A stretch of 64,000 bases of DNA from Verrucomicrobiaceae bacterium (lineage in GTDB: Bacteria; Verrucomicrobiota; Verrucomicrobiia; Verrucomicrobiales; Akkermansiaceae): NCBI GenBank assembly GCA_027491155.1, contig JAIXWR010000028.1, positions 1-64,000 of the forward strand. The letters are read 5' to 3'. The translations under genes were made by a program, and so were the position numbers. Below, piece by piece: positions 25,996 through 28,965 of this stretch. The notes beneath the pieces are model-generated. The model saw only the letters and a list, made by a program, of their open reading frames with translations, had not been told where the DNA came from and ran no database searches. Positions within the stretch are counted from its first letter, which is position 1; every line of letters begins with the position of its first letter.

Positions 25996-28965
25996 ATGGA
26001 CGACCTTTTCAGCCGCCCGACCGCCGGGGCCCGCATCGCTGAACTCCGCAAGGAACTCGAGCGCCACAACCGCCTCTACTACGAGGACGCCGCGCCGGAA
26101 ATCTCCGACGCGGACTACGACAAGCTCTACCGCGAGCTCGAACAGCTCGAAGCCGCGCACCCCGAGTTCGCCTCGCCCGACTCCCCCACCCGCCGCGTCG
26201 GCGGGGCCCCGCTCGAAAGCTTCCAGCAGGTCCGCCACCTGGTCCCGATGCTCAGCATCGACGATGTCTTCGAGTTGAAGGACGCCGAAGTGCCCGAAGC
26301 CGAGCTGATCGACTTCTACAAGCGCCTCCAGAAAAACCTCGGCCGCGAGAACATCGCCGTGACCGTGGAGCCGAAAATCGACGGCGTCGCGGTGTCCTTG
26401 GTCTATCGCGACGGCAAGCTCGACTACGCCGCGACCCGCGGCGACGGGACGACCGGGGATGATGTGACGAACAACGTGCGGACGATCCGGACGATTCCGC
26501 TCACGCTCGCCGCAGCCGGGCCCGGCGGCCCGGACGTTGACTTGGAAAGGATTCTCTTCGACCATCCTCCACATGAATTCAGCCCTTCAAACACGCCAAC
26601 TCGCGGAGAGACTGAAAGCGGCCCGGAAGAAAGCCTACGCCGCAAGCTCGAACATGACCGCGGAGCAAATGATGGAGCAGATGTTCCGGAACGGCTCCGA
26701 CGTGAAGCCGAATCCATTCTTGAATGGGGAGCTGCGACTGGTCGGACGATCCAAGAGCACAAGCTCCTCGGACTCGTAGGCGGTTGGACAAAACTGGGCG
26801 GTCAGTCCGAACATACCGTCTTCACCTTCGGGTCGTCGAAGCGCGTGATCAAGTTCACGCTGCCCCCGAATTTCGGAGCGCAAGGAGCAGAGGCCTACCT
26901 GAAGAACATCGGTGCCTCGAACCGTCTTTTCGCCGACGATATCCGCTTCCATGGCGTGCTCGAAACCGACAAGGGGCCCGCCTTTGTCATTTCCCAACCT
27001 TTCGTCCCAGGGACTGATCCCACCTTGGAAGAAGTCGCCTCATGGTTCATGAGCCTGGGCTACCGCTCCACCGGCCACAACCGCTGGATCAACGACACCA
27101 CCGGCACCGAAATTGCCGATGCCCACACCGGCAATCTCATCAAGACCGCCGACGGGGAACTCGTCCCCATCGACCTGCAAGTCCTCAGCGAAGGCGAAGC
27201 CGAAGCCGCCATCTCATCCACCATCAACCATCAACCATCTGCCATCCCATCCCTGCTGGAAGTCCGCGGCGAGATCTTCATGCCCAACGAGGCCTTCGCC
27301 GCGATGAACGCCGAGCGCGACGAGGCCGGGTTGCCGACCTTCGCCAACCCGCGCAACGCCACCGCCGGCACGCTGAAGCAACTCGACCCGAAGATCGTCG
27401 CCACCCGTCCCCTCGCCTTCCTCGCCCACGGACTCGGCGCTTACGAGGGACCCGAACTCCCGACGGAGCACGATTTCCACGCCCTGCTCGACGAACTGGC
27501 CATCCCGCGCAACCGGCCGGTGATCGTCGCCGAATCGCTGGACGAGCTGTTAGAGGCAGTGCGCCGCATCGACAACGATCGCCACACGCTCGGCTACGGC
27601 ACCGACGGCGCGGTGGTGAAAGTCCTCGCCCGCTCCGAACGCGAGCAACTCGGCTTCACCTCCCGCGCCCCACGCTGGGCCGCGGCTTACAAGTTCCTGC
27701 CGGAGCAGAAGGAAACCGTGCTCAAGGACATCACCATCCAGGTCGGCCGCACCGGCGTGCTGACCCCGGTGGCGGAACTCGAACCGGTGCTCGTTTCCGG
27801 CACGACGGTCGCCCGCGCCACCCTTCACAACGAGGAAGAGATCCAGCGCAAGGACATCCGGATCGGCGATACGGTGGTGATCGAGAAAGCCGGCGAGATC
27901 ATCCCGGCGGTGGTGAAAGTGGTGATGGAAAAGCGCCCCCCCGGCACGCCGCCCTTTTCGCTGCTCGACCACATCGGCGGCAAATGCCCGTCCTGCGGCG
28001 GCCCGGTGTCAAAAGAAGAAGGCTTCGTCGCCTGGCGTTGCACCAACTTCGAATGCCCGGCCCAAGCCGTTTCCAAGATCAAGCAGTTCGCGTCGCGCAA
28101 GGCTCTCGATATCGAAGGCGTCGGCGAGACGGTGGCCGAGGCGCTGGTCCGGCGCGGGCTTTGCCGCACGCCGCTCGACCTCTTCACGCTCGATGCCGAA
28201 AGCCTCGCAAACCTCAACCTCGGCAGCGACGAGGAAGCGCGGCGCTTCGGGGAGAAGAACGCCGCGAAGGTGATCGAAGCCCTGAAGGCGGCCCGCGAAA
28301 AGCCGCTCGACCGCTGGCTCTTCGCGATGGGCATCCGTCAGGTCGGCGAGTCCGCGGCGAAGGAGCTGGCACGGCTTCATCCGGACCTCAGGTCGGTAGG
28401 CTCGAGTGATCTGCTGCAGAGCGTCGCGGAGATCGGCCGGCTCGAAGCCGAGCGCAAGATTGTCTCGCCGCGCAACAAGGAGAACCCGCCTGCCAACGAT
28501 GCCGACAAGCAGGATCGCCAGCGGGCTCACGACGAACTCAAGGCCAGCATCGACGCCATCGCCGCGACGCTGGAAGGCTACAAGATTTCCCCCGACGCCG
28601 GACAGGTCGTCGCGGAAAGCGTGACCTCGTTCTTCAGCTCCGAAGCCGGCCGCCACGTGCTGGAGCGCATGGAGCAGCTCGGCATTGATCCCGCATCCGC
28701 CAACTACCAGCCGAAGCCCGCTGAGGCCGACCTGTCCGCGATGCCCCTCGCCGGCAAGACCTTCGTCATCACCGGCACCCTCTCGATGGGCCGCGACGAG
28801 ATGAAGCGCCACCTCGAATCGAAAGGCGCGAAAGTCTCCGGCTCGGTCTCCGCGAACACCGACTACCTGCTCTCCGGCGAAGGCGGCGGCTCGAAGCGCG
28901 ACAAAGCGGAGAAGCTCGGCGTCAAGGTGATCGGCGAGGAGGAACTTGCGGAGCTGTTAGGGTAG
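25996..28965 (+). CDS. ligA: NAD-dependent DNA ligase with inserted kinase-like domain
   Basis: 989 residues, against about 670-720 for usual LigA. It seals nicks with NAD as cofactor. Present: domain Ia ([19 protein letters not shown]), the adenylation lysine in PKIDG (K127), [13 protein letters not shown], then an in-frame insert of about 240 residues (180-419), then [13 protein letters not shown]-fold motifs, the four-Cys zinc finger CPSC...CTNFEC, helix-hairpin-helix repeats with a long lysine-rich loop, and a BRCT domain. The insert has kinase features: VIKFT (K286), [24 protein letters not shown] (D375, N380), VPID (D393), resembling the kinase domain of polyvalent proteins. ATG 25996 is chosen; a GTG at 25981 is possible. 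Whether the insert is tolerated or spliced is unknown. Confidence 0.93.
26533..27252 (+). other. Inserted segment in ligA with kinase-like domain
   Basis: The segment lies between conserved LigA blocks [13 protein letters not shown] and LLEVRGE and adds 240 codons without a stop. Its left end, GACTTGGAAAGG ... CCATCCTCCACATG, resembles this genome's intergenic leaders, and its right end (CCACCATCAACCATCAACCA at 27219) is low complexity, also like spacers before genes. An ATG at 26573 opens a second frame of 68 codons (to 26779) with a natural-looking helical start ([20 protein letters not shown]), suggesting that the segment was once a separate gene that lost its own frame. Confidence 0.7.

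Follow-up and report, generated by a model that had tools for sequence, protein, structure and literature searches.

Why does a DNA ligase carry a protein kinase in the middle of its catalytic domain? The question is raised by ligA of a Verrucomicrobiaceae bacterium (assembly GCA_027491155.1, contig JAIXWR010000028.1), analysed in a stretch of 64,000 nucleotides referred to here as the window. The gene, which encodes the NAD+-dependent DNA ligase LigA, lies on the forward strand (+), as do all features placed in the window below, at 25996..28965 (989 residues; codons 25996-28962, stop 28963-28965). It holds an in-frame insert of 240 codons (26533..27252, LigA residues 180-419) between the conserved blocks RTIPLTL and LLEVRGE. 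The insert reads as a polyvalent-protein (PolyVal) kinase, and its 5' part is overlapped in the +1 frame by a putative nested gene of 68 amino acids (26573..26779). It has, in our judgement, about an even chance of being a phage-derived, two-protein conflict module, kinase plus cognate nested regulator, which would sit in LigA as an exchangeable in-frame cassette that does not splice. Genomes and loci are cited by G and L numbers.

The ligase and the kinase inside it

Adenylation, OB, zinc-finger, HhH and BRCT domains flank the insert (Pfam), and the whole protein was assigned to LigA by NCBIfam (PRK07956, 748.6 bits, cut-off 369). The lysine of the KxDG motif, K127, is encoded at 26374-26376, and the rest of the adenylation domain with the OB, zinc-finger, HhH and BRCT domains follows the insert at 27253..28962. 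Both the motif (K127, D129, G130) and the zinc-finger cysteines (C664, C667, C682 and C687) are invariant in 31 aligned insert-bearing LigAs, and the window protein is an NAD+-dependent LigA by motif, domains and whole-protein score. A first-pass annotation, made from the letters of the window, had described a LigA of about 989 residues with 240 in-frame codons at this site and with K127 and the C-terminal domains intact; the open reading frame (ORF), the Pfam domains and the invariant residues all agree with it.

In the structural model of full-length LigA (mean predicted local distance difference test score, pLDDT, 79.1; predicted template modelling score, pTM, 0.45) the insert forms an ordered unit, flanked by linkers that are poorly predicted. 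The pLDDT falls below 50 at LigA residues 174-180, 193-208 and 403-415, and the orientation of the insert to the ligase is poorly defined. Solved LigA structures are matched by the model at 1.6-2.0 A over 235-253 residues that lie to either side of the insert, figures taken from rows covering the adenylation domain alone (e.g. 7k72, 6krh, 8jyd, 3bac). Because the modelled flanks match the solved adenylation domain, the insert can be accommodated in a loop of LigA. A search for a second ligA in the genome of the window gave one match only at E 1e-20, among the matches listed. An ORF at 4458-6269, which has a short repeat in common with ligA, was considered as a ligase and rejected, its translation being unlike one; no family search of it was made.

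Within the insert, Pfam identified Kinase-PolyVal (PF18762) at insert residues 90-214 (46.9 bits, cut-off 27, E 4e-12), the same family that the first-pass annotation had named. Its statement that every expected catalytic residue is present was also correct, since E93, K107, Q155, D196, N201 and D214 all occur in the kinase core (insert residues 85-222, 26785..27198); the active-site codons are K107 at 26851-26853, D196 at 27118-27120, N201 at 27133-27135 and D214 at 27172-27174. For comparison, an alignment was made of 40 ligA genes in which the insert has 195 codons or more; some of the tables of relatives and genomes come from sampled genomes or give counts among the matches listed. E93, K107 and Q155 are kept in 40 of 40 inserts, D196, N201 and D214 in 39. 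Ligase and kinase both retain their catalytic residues at the sequence level, and the pooled ratio of nonsynonymous to synonymous change (dN/dS) of the kinase core, 0.12, indicates purifying selection. The C-terminal subdomain of the kinase is missing in the insert model, where the last strand is formed by residues 216-219 and residues 224-240 have a pLDDT below 50. The insert had no match in PHROG, PADLOC or NCBIfam at the thresholds used, and the kinase profile had no sequence match among solved structures at E 1.

The C-terminal linker of the insert (27213..27246) encodes 12 residues by ACCATCA-type heptamer repeats read in frame. Such linkers are often in-frame heptamer repeats, of ACCATCA, ATTCAAA and CAATCCC types, and a period of 7 was best in 28/40 C-terminal linkers vs 2/40 for a stretch of the core. 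The genome of the window also holds a second, divergent standalone PolyVal kinase gene (L002, contig C5, 130014-130331, about 235 residues).

Distribution, exchange and other carriers

An insert at the same LigA site was found in 45 of 260 genomes of the same family, the window's included (52-74% identical to the window insert; the count takes in inserts cut by contig ends). Remnants occur in three further family genomes, G129 (about the first 84 insert residues), G147 (about the first 73 plus a few from the end) and G148. A unique or recent insertion is ruled out by these numbers. The first-pass annotation had known no LigA with such an insertion, which understated what the survey of homologues shows to be a widespread occurrence in the family, and had entertained a recent disruption whose frame was preserved by accident, a reading that fails on the dozens of species with the insert and on the dN/dS of the kinase core. 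A pattern-based scan of 84,980 species returned 43 loci, every record with a Verrucomicrobia name, and an order-wide profile search (386 sampled genomes) gave one out-of-family ligA with the insert among the matches listed, in G304. At this site a linker of 10 residues is found in many insert-free ligA genes from the same genera, and a longer one in several; the longer linkers in G126, G157, G159 and G152 look like deletion scars.

Presence of the insert (42 genes, with G129 and G147 counted) takes 24 changes on a quick tree of 94 ligA sequences from which the insert was excised; 30 of its 91 inner branches are open. Label shuffles of 83 genes, in the three groups of genera with the insert, need 28.0 changes (standard deviation, SD, 2.5), and 36 of 500 were as low; presence follows the ligA tree little better than chance. 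The closest unlike pairs are G120 without and G133 with the insert (distance 0.048), G103/G169, G103/G101, G099/G146 and G089/G080. Insert and flank alignments from 35 genomes reject each other's tree (approximately unbiased test, 1.8e-66 and 4.9e-6; Robinson-Foulds distance 54), five of the 40 inserts, from partial or recombinant ligA genes (G158, G164, G168, G086 and G166), being left out. The LigA inserts fall on one side of the insert tree at 97/90, with a long-branch warning for the outgroup rows. Flank identity is 86-91% in G125/G171, G170/G128, G150/G110 and G169/G101, and insert identity just 51-66%. The opposite is seen in G136/G162 and G122/G168, whose inserts differ less than their flanks do at synonymous sites. 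The proportion of synonymous differences (pS) of the insert was less than half that of the flank in 4, and more than 1.3 times as high in 30, of 160 pairs with flank pS below 0.5. Since presence is near random and the two trees reject each other, cassettes have repeatedly been swapped, gained and lost; at the same codon position relatives have the cassette absent, present, exchanged for another or partly deleted.

The out-of-family copy in G304 has neighbours closer to families f3/f2 (cysK 74-79%, moaA 61-70%) than to f1 (cysK 60-64%, with one G143 copy at 72%; moaA 42-48%). Residues 1-580 of its LigA, insert included, are f1-like, and the C-terminal part resembles that of G278 from its own family. 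Mosaic ligA genes, in which the N-terminal and adenylation part and the OB-to-BRCT part come from different lineages, were seen at L174 (G304), L056 (G086) and L123 (G159). Since LigA itself recombines here (G086, G159), the cassette could be transferred without driving the process. At L065 (G166) the ligA frame has 1147 codons, the last part being 37% identical to the closest relative, G122, and the other ligase segments 97-100%.

Might the cassette be a passenger without benefit to the cell, whose loss, in the manner of inteins, is outpaced by horizontal arrival and by its in-frame place within an essential gene, with function kept only via repeated transfer? Its near-random presence, the swaps between closely similar flanks, the decayed copies (G083, G129, G147 and G148) and a whole-insert dN/dS of about 1 among recently shared copies all speak for this. 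No homing nuclease or recombinase family matched the insert in family searches, however, its borders are unlike splice sites, and the dN/dS of the core requires selection on kinase activity, which weakens a purely selfish explanation; we regard it as unlikely.

LigA is not the only carrier. Proteins of 645-687 codons in a second family of the order are NspC (carboxynorspermidine decarboxylase; TIGR01047 scores 467-475, cut-off 409, in the 5 of 10 scanned) with the kinase and the nested ORF inside. They occur in 10 of 54 genomes having an NspC match (59 searched), a proportion that is no unbiased frequency because the 59 genomes were picked for a kinase match. Insert-free NspC frames have 379-522 residues (e.g. 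G336, 89% identical to the G405 query), and a clean junction reads ...YLIAEVQDIVG (insert) LPTAILDxSATAHMPD, vs YLIAEVQDIVASDTPTAILDLSATAHMPD. E93, K107, Q155, D196, N201 and D214 are kept in 10 of 10 NspC inserts. The branching enzyme GlgB of G399 carries the module, nested ORF included, in its N-terminal part; the contig breaks off within the gene. The same module is found in the polyvalent proteins L131, L185 and L186, of which L185 and L186 are on predicted viral contigs; these proteins have LPD3 or LPD37, with MuF_C just below cut-off, and are polyvalent proteins proper, whereas the carrier in the window is LigA. Related modules end polyvalent proteins, stand alone, or sit within NspC and the N-terminal part of GlgB.

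With the module in L131, L185 and L186, phage descent is the best-supported source, and of the candidate readings of the first-pass annotation that of a phage-derived kinase has held; the exchangeable cassette, the nested frame and the other carrier enzymes had gone unnoticed. A tblastn search of the insert against annotated phage and plasmid records gave no match at 1e-3. Two further arrangements were recorded. In f4 genomes (L244-L249, L251) a more distant PolyVal kinase forms the C-terminal part of OppD-like oligopeptide transporter ATPases; no nested-ORF match was found at these 7 loci, and in the 4 of 7 scanned the best models were OppD, with scores below cut-offs. A supposed kinase-UvrB fusion in G146 was rejected, since a stop separates the genes: L208 is a divergent standalone kinase-like gene directly before uvrB in the same frame.

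These carriers also bear on whether the kinase is a domesticated regulator that phosphorylates LigA or a replication or repair partner and tunes ligation, the nested ORF being accessory. The conserved core and catalytic residues, the modelled attachment to the adenylation domain by poorly ordered linkers, and the finding that the insert-bearing LigA is the sole ligase found in 16 of 40 genomes would fit such a role. Presence is nevertheless near random between relatives, scarred and scarless absences are common, and the reading loses ground through the occurrence of the module in NspC and GlgB, which have no pathway in common with ligation. This suggestion, too, goes back to the first-pass annotation, and we now think it rather improbable.

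A tentative proposal, to which we would give somewhat less than even chances, is that of a mobile element at the protein level: the phage-derived kinase with its nested gene would repeatedly enter loops of unrelated enzymes (LigA, NspC and GlgB), in frame and with no splicing, as a conflict or addiction module that is hard to delete, the carrier enzyme would stay working, the small regulator would be made from an internal start, and the element would move between species.

A probable gene nested in the kinase frame

The stretch of the LigA frame that encodes a helical arm (insert residues 34-84, 26632..26784) is dual-coding, and its pooled pS is 0.12 vs 0.46 in the core. All 40 inserts leave the +1 frame open, and its start is ATG in 38 and GTG in 2, mostly directly 3' of the conserved LigA-frame motif ILPY..HE. 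By itself an open frame says little, because synonymous shuffling leaves the +1 frame open at a mean chance of 0.59 per genome (0.04-0.92). Where residues are identical, their codons are too in 0.71, 0.89 and 0.75 of pairs across insert residues 20-79; all other stretches give 0.43-0.69.

Conservation of the +1-frame amino acids was compared with that of shuffled codons, in shuffles that take no account of shared ancestry. Between 19 LigA inserts and 9 non-LigA relatives (8 distinct, L185 and L239 having the same sequence) identity was 0.377 vs 0.190 (SD 0.007, maximum 0.209), with control stretches of the core at 0.225 vs 0.216 and 0.267 vs 0.256. It was 0.394 vs 0.242 (SD 0.012) between LigA and NspC inserts and 0.664 vs 0.304 (SD 0.017) within NspC; two of the four control stretches in the NspC comparison were slightly above every shuffle, at 0.199 vs 0.166 (poor alignment) and 0.316 vs 0.280. 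Conservation in the second frame exceeds what the first frame forces, which by sequence is the mark of an overlapping gene, and kinase core and nested frame are both conserved.

The predicted protein has 60-97 amino acids as delimited and a median net charge of +6 (range 0 to 14). Among 35 sequences, drawn from standalone kinase genes and polyvalent proteins as well as LigA inserts, R18, G41, S42, N47 and G52 never vary, the start methionine being invariant through the choice of start. L184, which has a stop, was left out of one alignment (A3). No convincing family was found for it in Pfam, PHROGs or PDB. Three hemocyanin rows (5e-5 to 1e-3, no stretch passing alone) and four patatin-type rows (about 0.6) from PDB profiles were taken as chance, and a putative excisionase, DUF1233, touched by 2 of 35 members (best E 5e-4), was rejected as too weak.

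A match to the nested frame accompanies 57 of the 58 complete kinase cores with scores of 150 bits or more, the remaining one being cut at a contig end, as would be expected of two genetically linked products of the toxin-antitoxin kind. A full-length nested ORF is left where the kinase is deleted or broken in G129 and G147 (both LigA), G299, G294 and G261 (GTG start); the kinase was lost and the partner kept in these 5 copies, and the reverse was seen in 0. Ahead of the nested gene lies a -35-like element, TTGAC (26537..26541 in the window), and the layout TTGAC-N17-TANNNT-N7-[AG]TG was found in 23 of 40 inserts (synonymous shuffles mean 0.1, maximum 1). The same promoter-like layout precedes the second nested-ORF ATG in viral contig L185, and nearly the same one precedes the ORF of standalone L180; the spacing from element to start would suit a leaderless transcript.

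Two readings would deny the nested frame a gene of its own. Programmed frameshifting could join it to the kinase core as an alternative N-terminus, and it does stop close to the start of the core. The kinase-frame arm is itself conserved, however (R54, R56, E58, S61 and W65 invariant in 23 inserts), G129 and G147 retain the nested ORF without a complete kinase core, and entry by frameshift from LigA is disfavoured because in-frame stops lie just upstream of the nested start in at least two inserts, G163 (L154) and G247 (L177); we consider frameshifting very improbable. Still less credit is due to an overlap constraint from DNA or RNA signals, for which the conserved promoter-like element just upstream might be cited, as conservation of the +1 amino acids among copies from LigA, phages, standalone genes and NspC goes well beyond that in synonymous shuffles, with controls at the shuffled level or at most 0.04 above it in the NspC comparison. 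An assembly or binning artefact, which the many metagenome bins might suggest, is hardly conceivable given the insert in the single-contig genomes G083, G133 and G146 among the 40 aligned, the many different isolate and study names on the records, and the same LigA position and open frame at all loci checked but G118. In that genome (L102) the N-terminal part of ligA is in another frame than the insert, through a sequencing error or a true break.

Proposed mechanism and known systems

As a phage-derived conflict module, the cassette would consist of a PolyVal kinase without C-lobe and a small, mostly basic protein nested at the 5' end of the kinase. The kinase would be made as part of LigA, tethered through flexible linkers, and the nested protein would be translated independently, as the upstream stops and the promoter-like element suggest. 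We infer that the small protein is produced and controls the kinase as its cognate regulator, most likely as an antitoxin- or immunity-like inhibitor. The pair might serve in phage conflict, or be an addiction-like passenger that an essential gene could shed only if the frame is kept; spread would proceed by horizontal transfer and then homologous recombination in the conserved ligA flanks.

Several observations weigh against this account. The insert of G083 is without D196, N201 and D214, and whole-insert dN/dS is about 1, as under drift, in three pairs formed by G136, G162 and G164, though the dual-coding stretch depresses dS there. Among more distant complete cores (below 150 bits) the nested ORF was present in 1 of 9 and missing in 8; both partners are damaged in G341 and in the second G318 copy, and G148 has neither the nested part nor the half of the kinase that holds K107. 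The asymmetry of 5 vs 0 losses is only suggestive of an antitoxin-like partner, because the kinase is the larger target. The window copy is outside the 23 with the promoter-like layout, having GACCAT where TANNNT is expected, and a sigma-70 scan of it found no promoter; the neglect of shared ancestry in the codon shuffles applies to the promoter shuffles as well. A ligA control segment gave 1 and 4 anomalies in the same 160 pairs, fewer than the insert but above zero, and mobility may be ordinary ligA recombination (G086, G159, G304) and not a property of the cassette.

If the account is true, foreign DNA can persist in an essential gene in a way other than as an intein or intron, namely as a travelling domain that leaves the host protein unspliced and unbroken. 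The retention of an overlapping frame in phage, standalone and host-enzyme members of a single kinase family is strongly supported dual coding, and the substrates of PolyVal kinases and the use of essential enzymes as safe harbours for phage conflict modules become testable points. LigA is a studied drug target (inhibitor structures are among the structural matches), and its tolerance of a 240-residue insertion in the catalytic domain is of structural interest. A literature search, which covered few subscription papers, returned no LigA with an inserted kinase and no overlapping gene in PolyVal kinases. The ligase and the kinase family are already known; the non-splicing in-frame cassette with a nested gene appears to be new, as we know of no described element of this kind.

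Among known systems, inteins likewise show presence and absence at the same site of an essential gene of DNA metabolism, horizontal exchange, decay and loss. The cassette was rejected as an intein because its borders are variable, low-complexity linkers without splicing residues, with neither a nucleophile at the N-border nor His-Asn plus a nucleophile at the C-border. Rickettsial palindromic elements are foreign sequences inserted in frame in host ORFs, but they are short repeats; the LigA insert is likewise in frame, yet brings a folded kinase and a nested gene. HipBA-type toxin-antitoxin modules have kinase toxins, and the cassette resembles them in the linkage of a kinase to a small, mostly basic partner and in the one-sided loss of the kinase; it differs in that the small gene lies inside the kinase gene in another frame and in that two further copies have both damaged. 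The effector kinases OspG, NleH2 and HopBF1, which lack the C-lobe, share the mini-kinase fold in structure comparison. PolyVal kinases are described by Iyer et al. 2017 (PMC5512222) as having a truncated C-lobe, a Glu before strand 2 and a conserved N-lobe Gln, and Verrucomicrobia-Chlamydia (pro)phages are named there as a main home of Kinase-PolyVal. The insert belongs to the same sequence family and has the truncated C-lobe, E93, Q155 and the residues for ATP and phosphotransfer, but here the kinase lies inside a host housekeeping enzyme, together with a nested gene that is absent from that description of the family.

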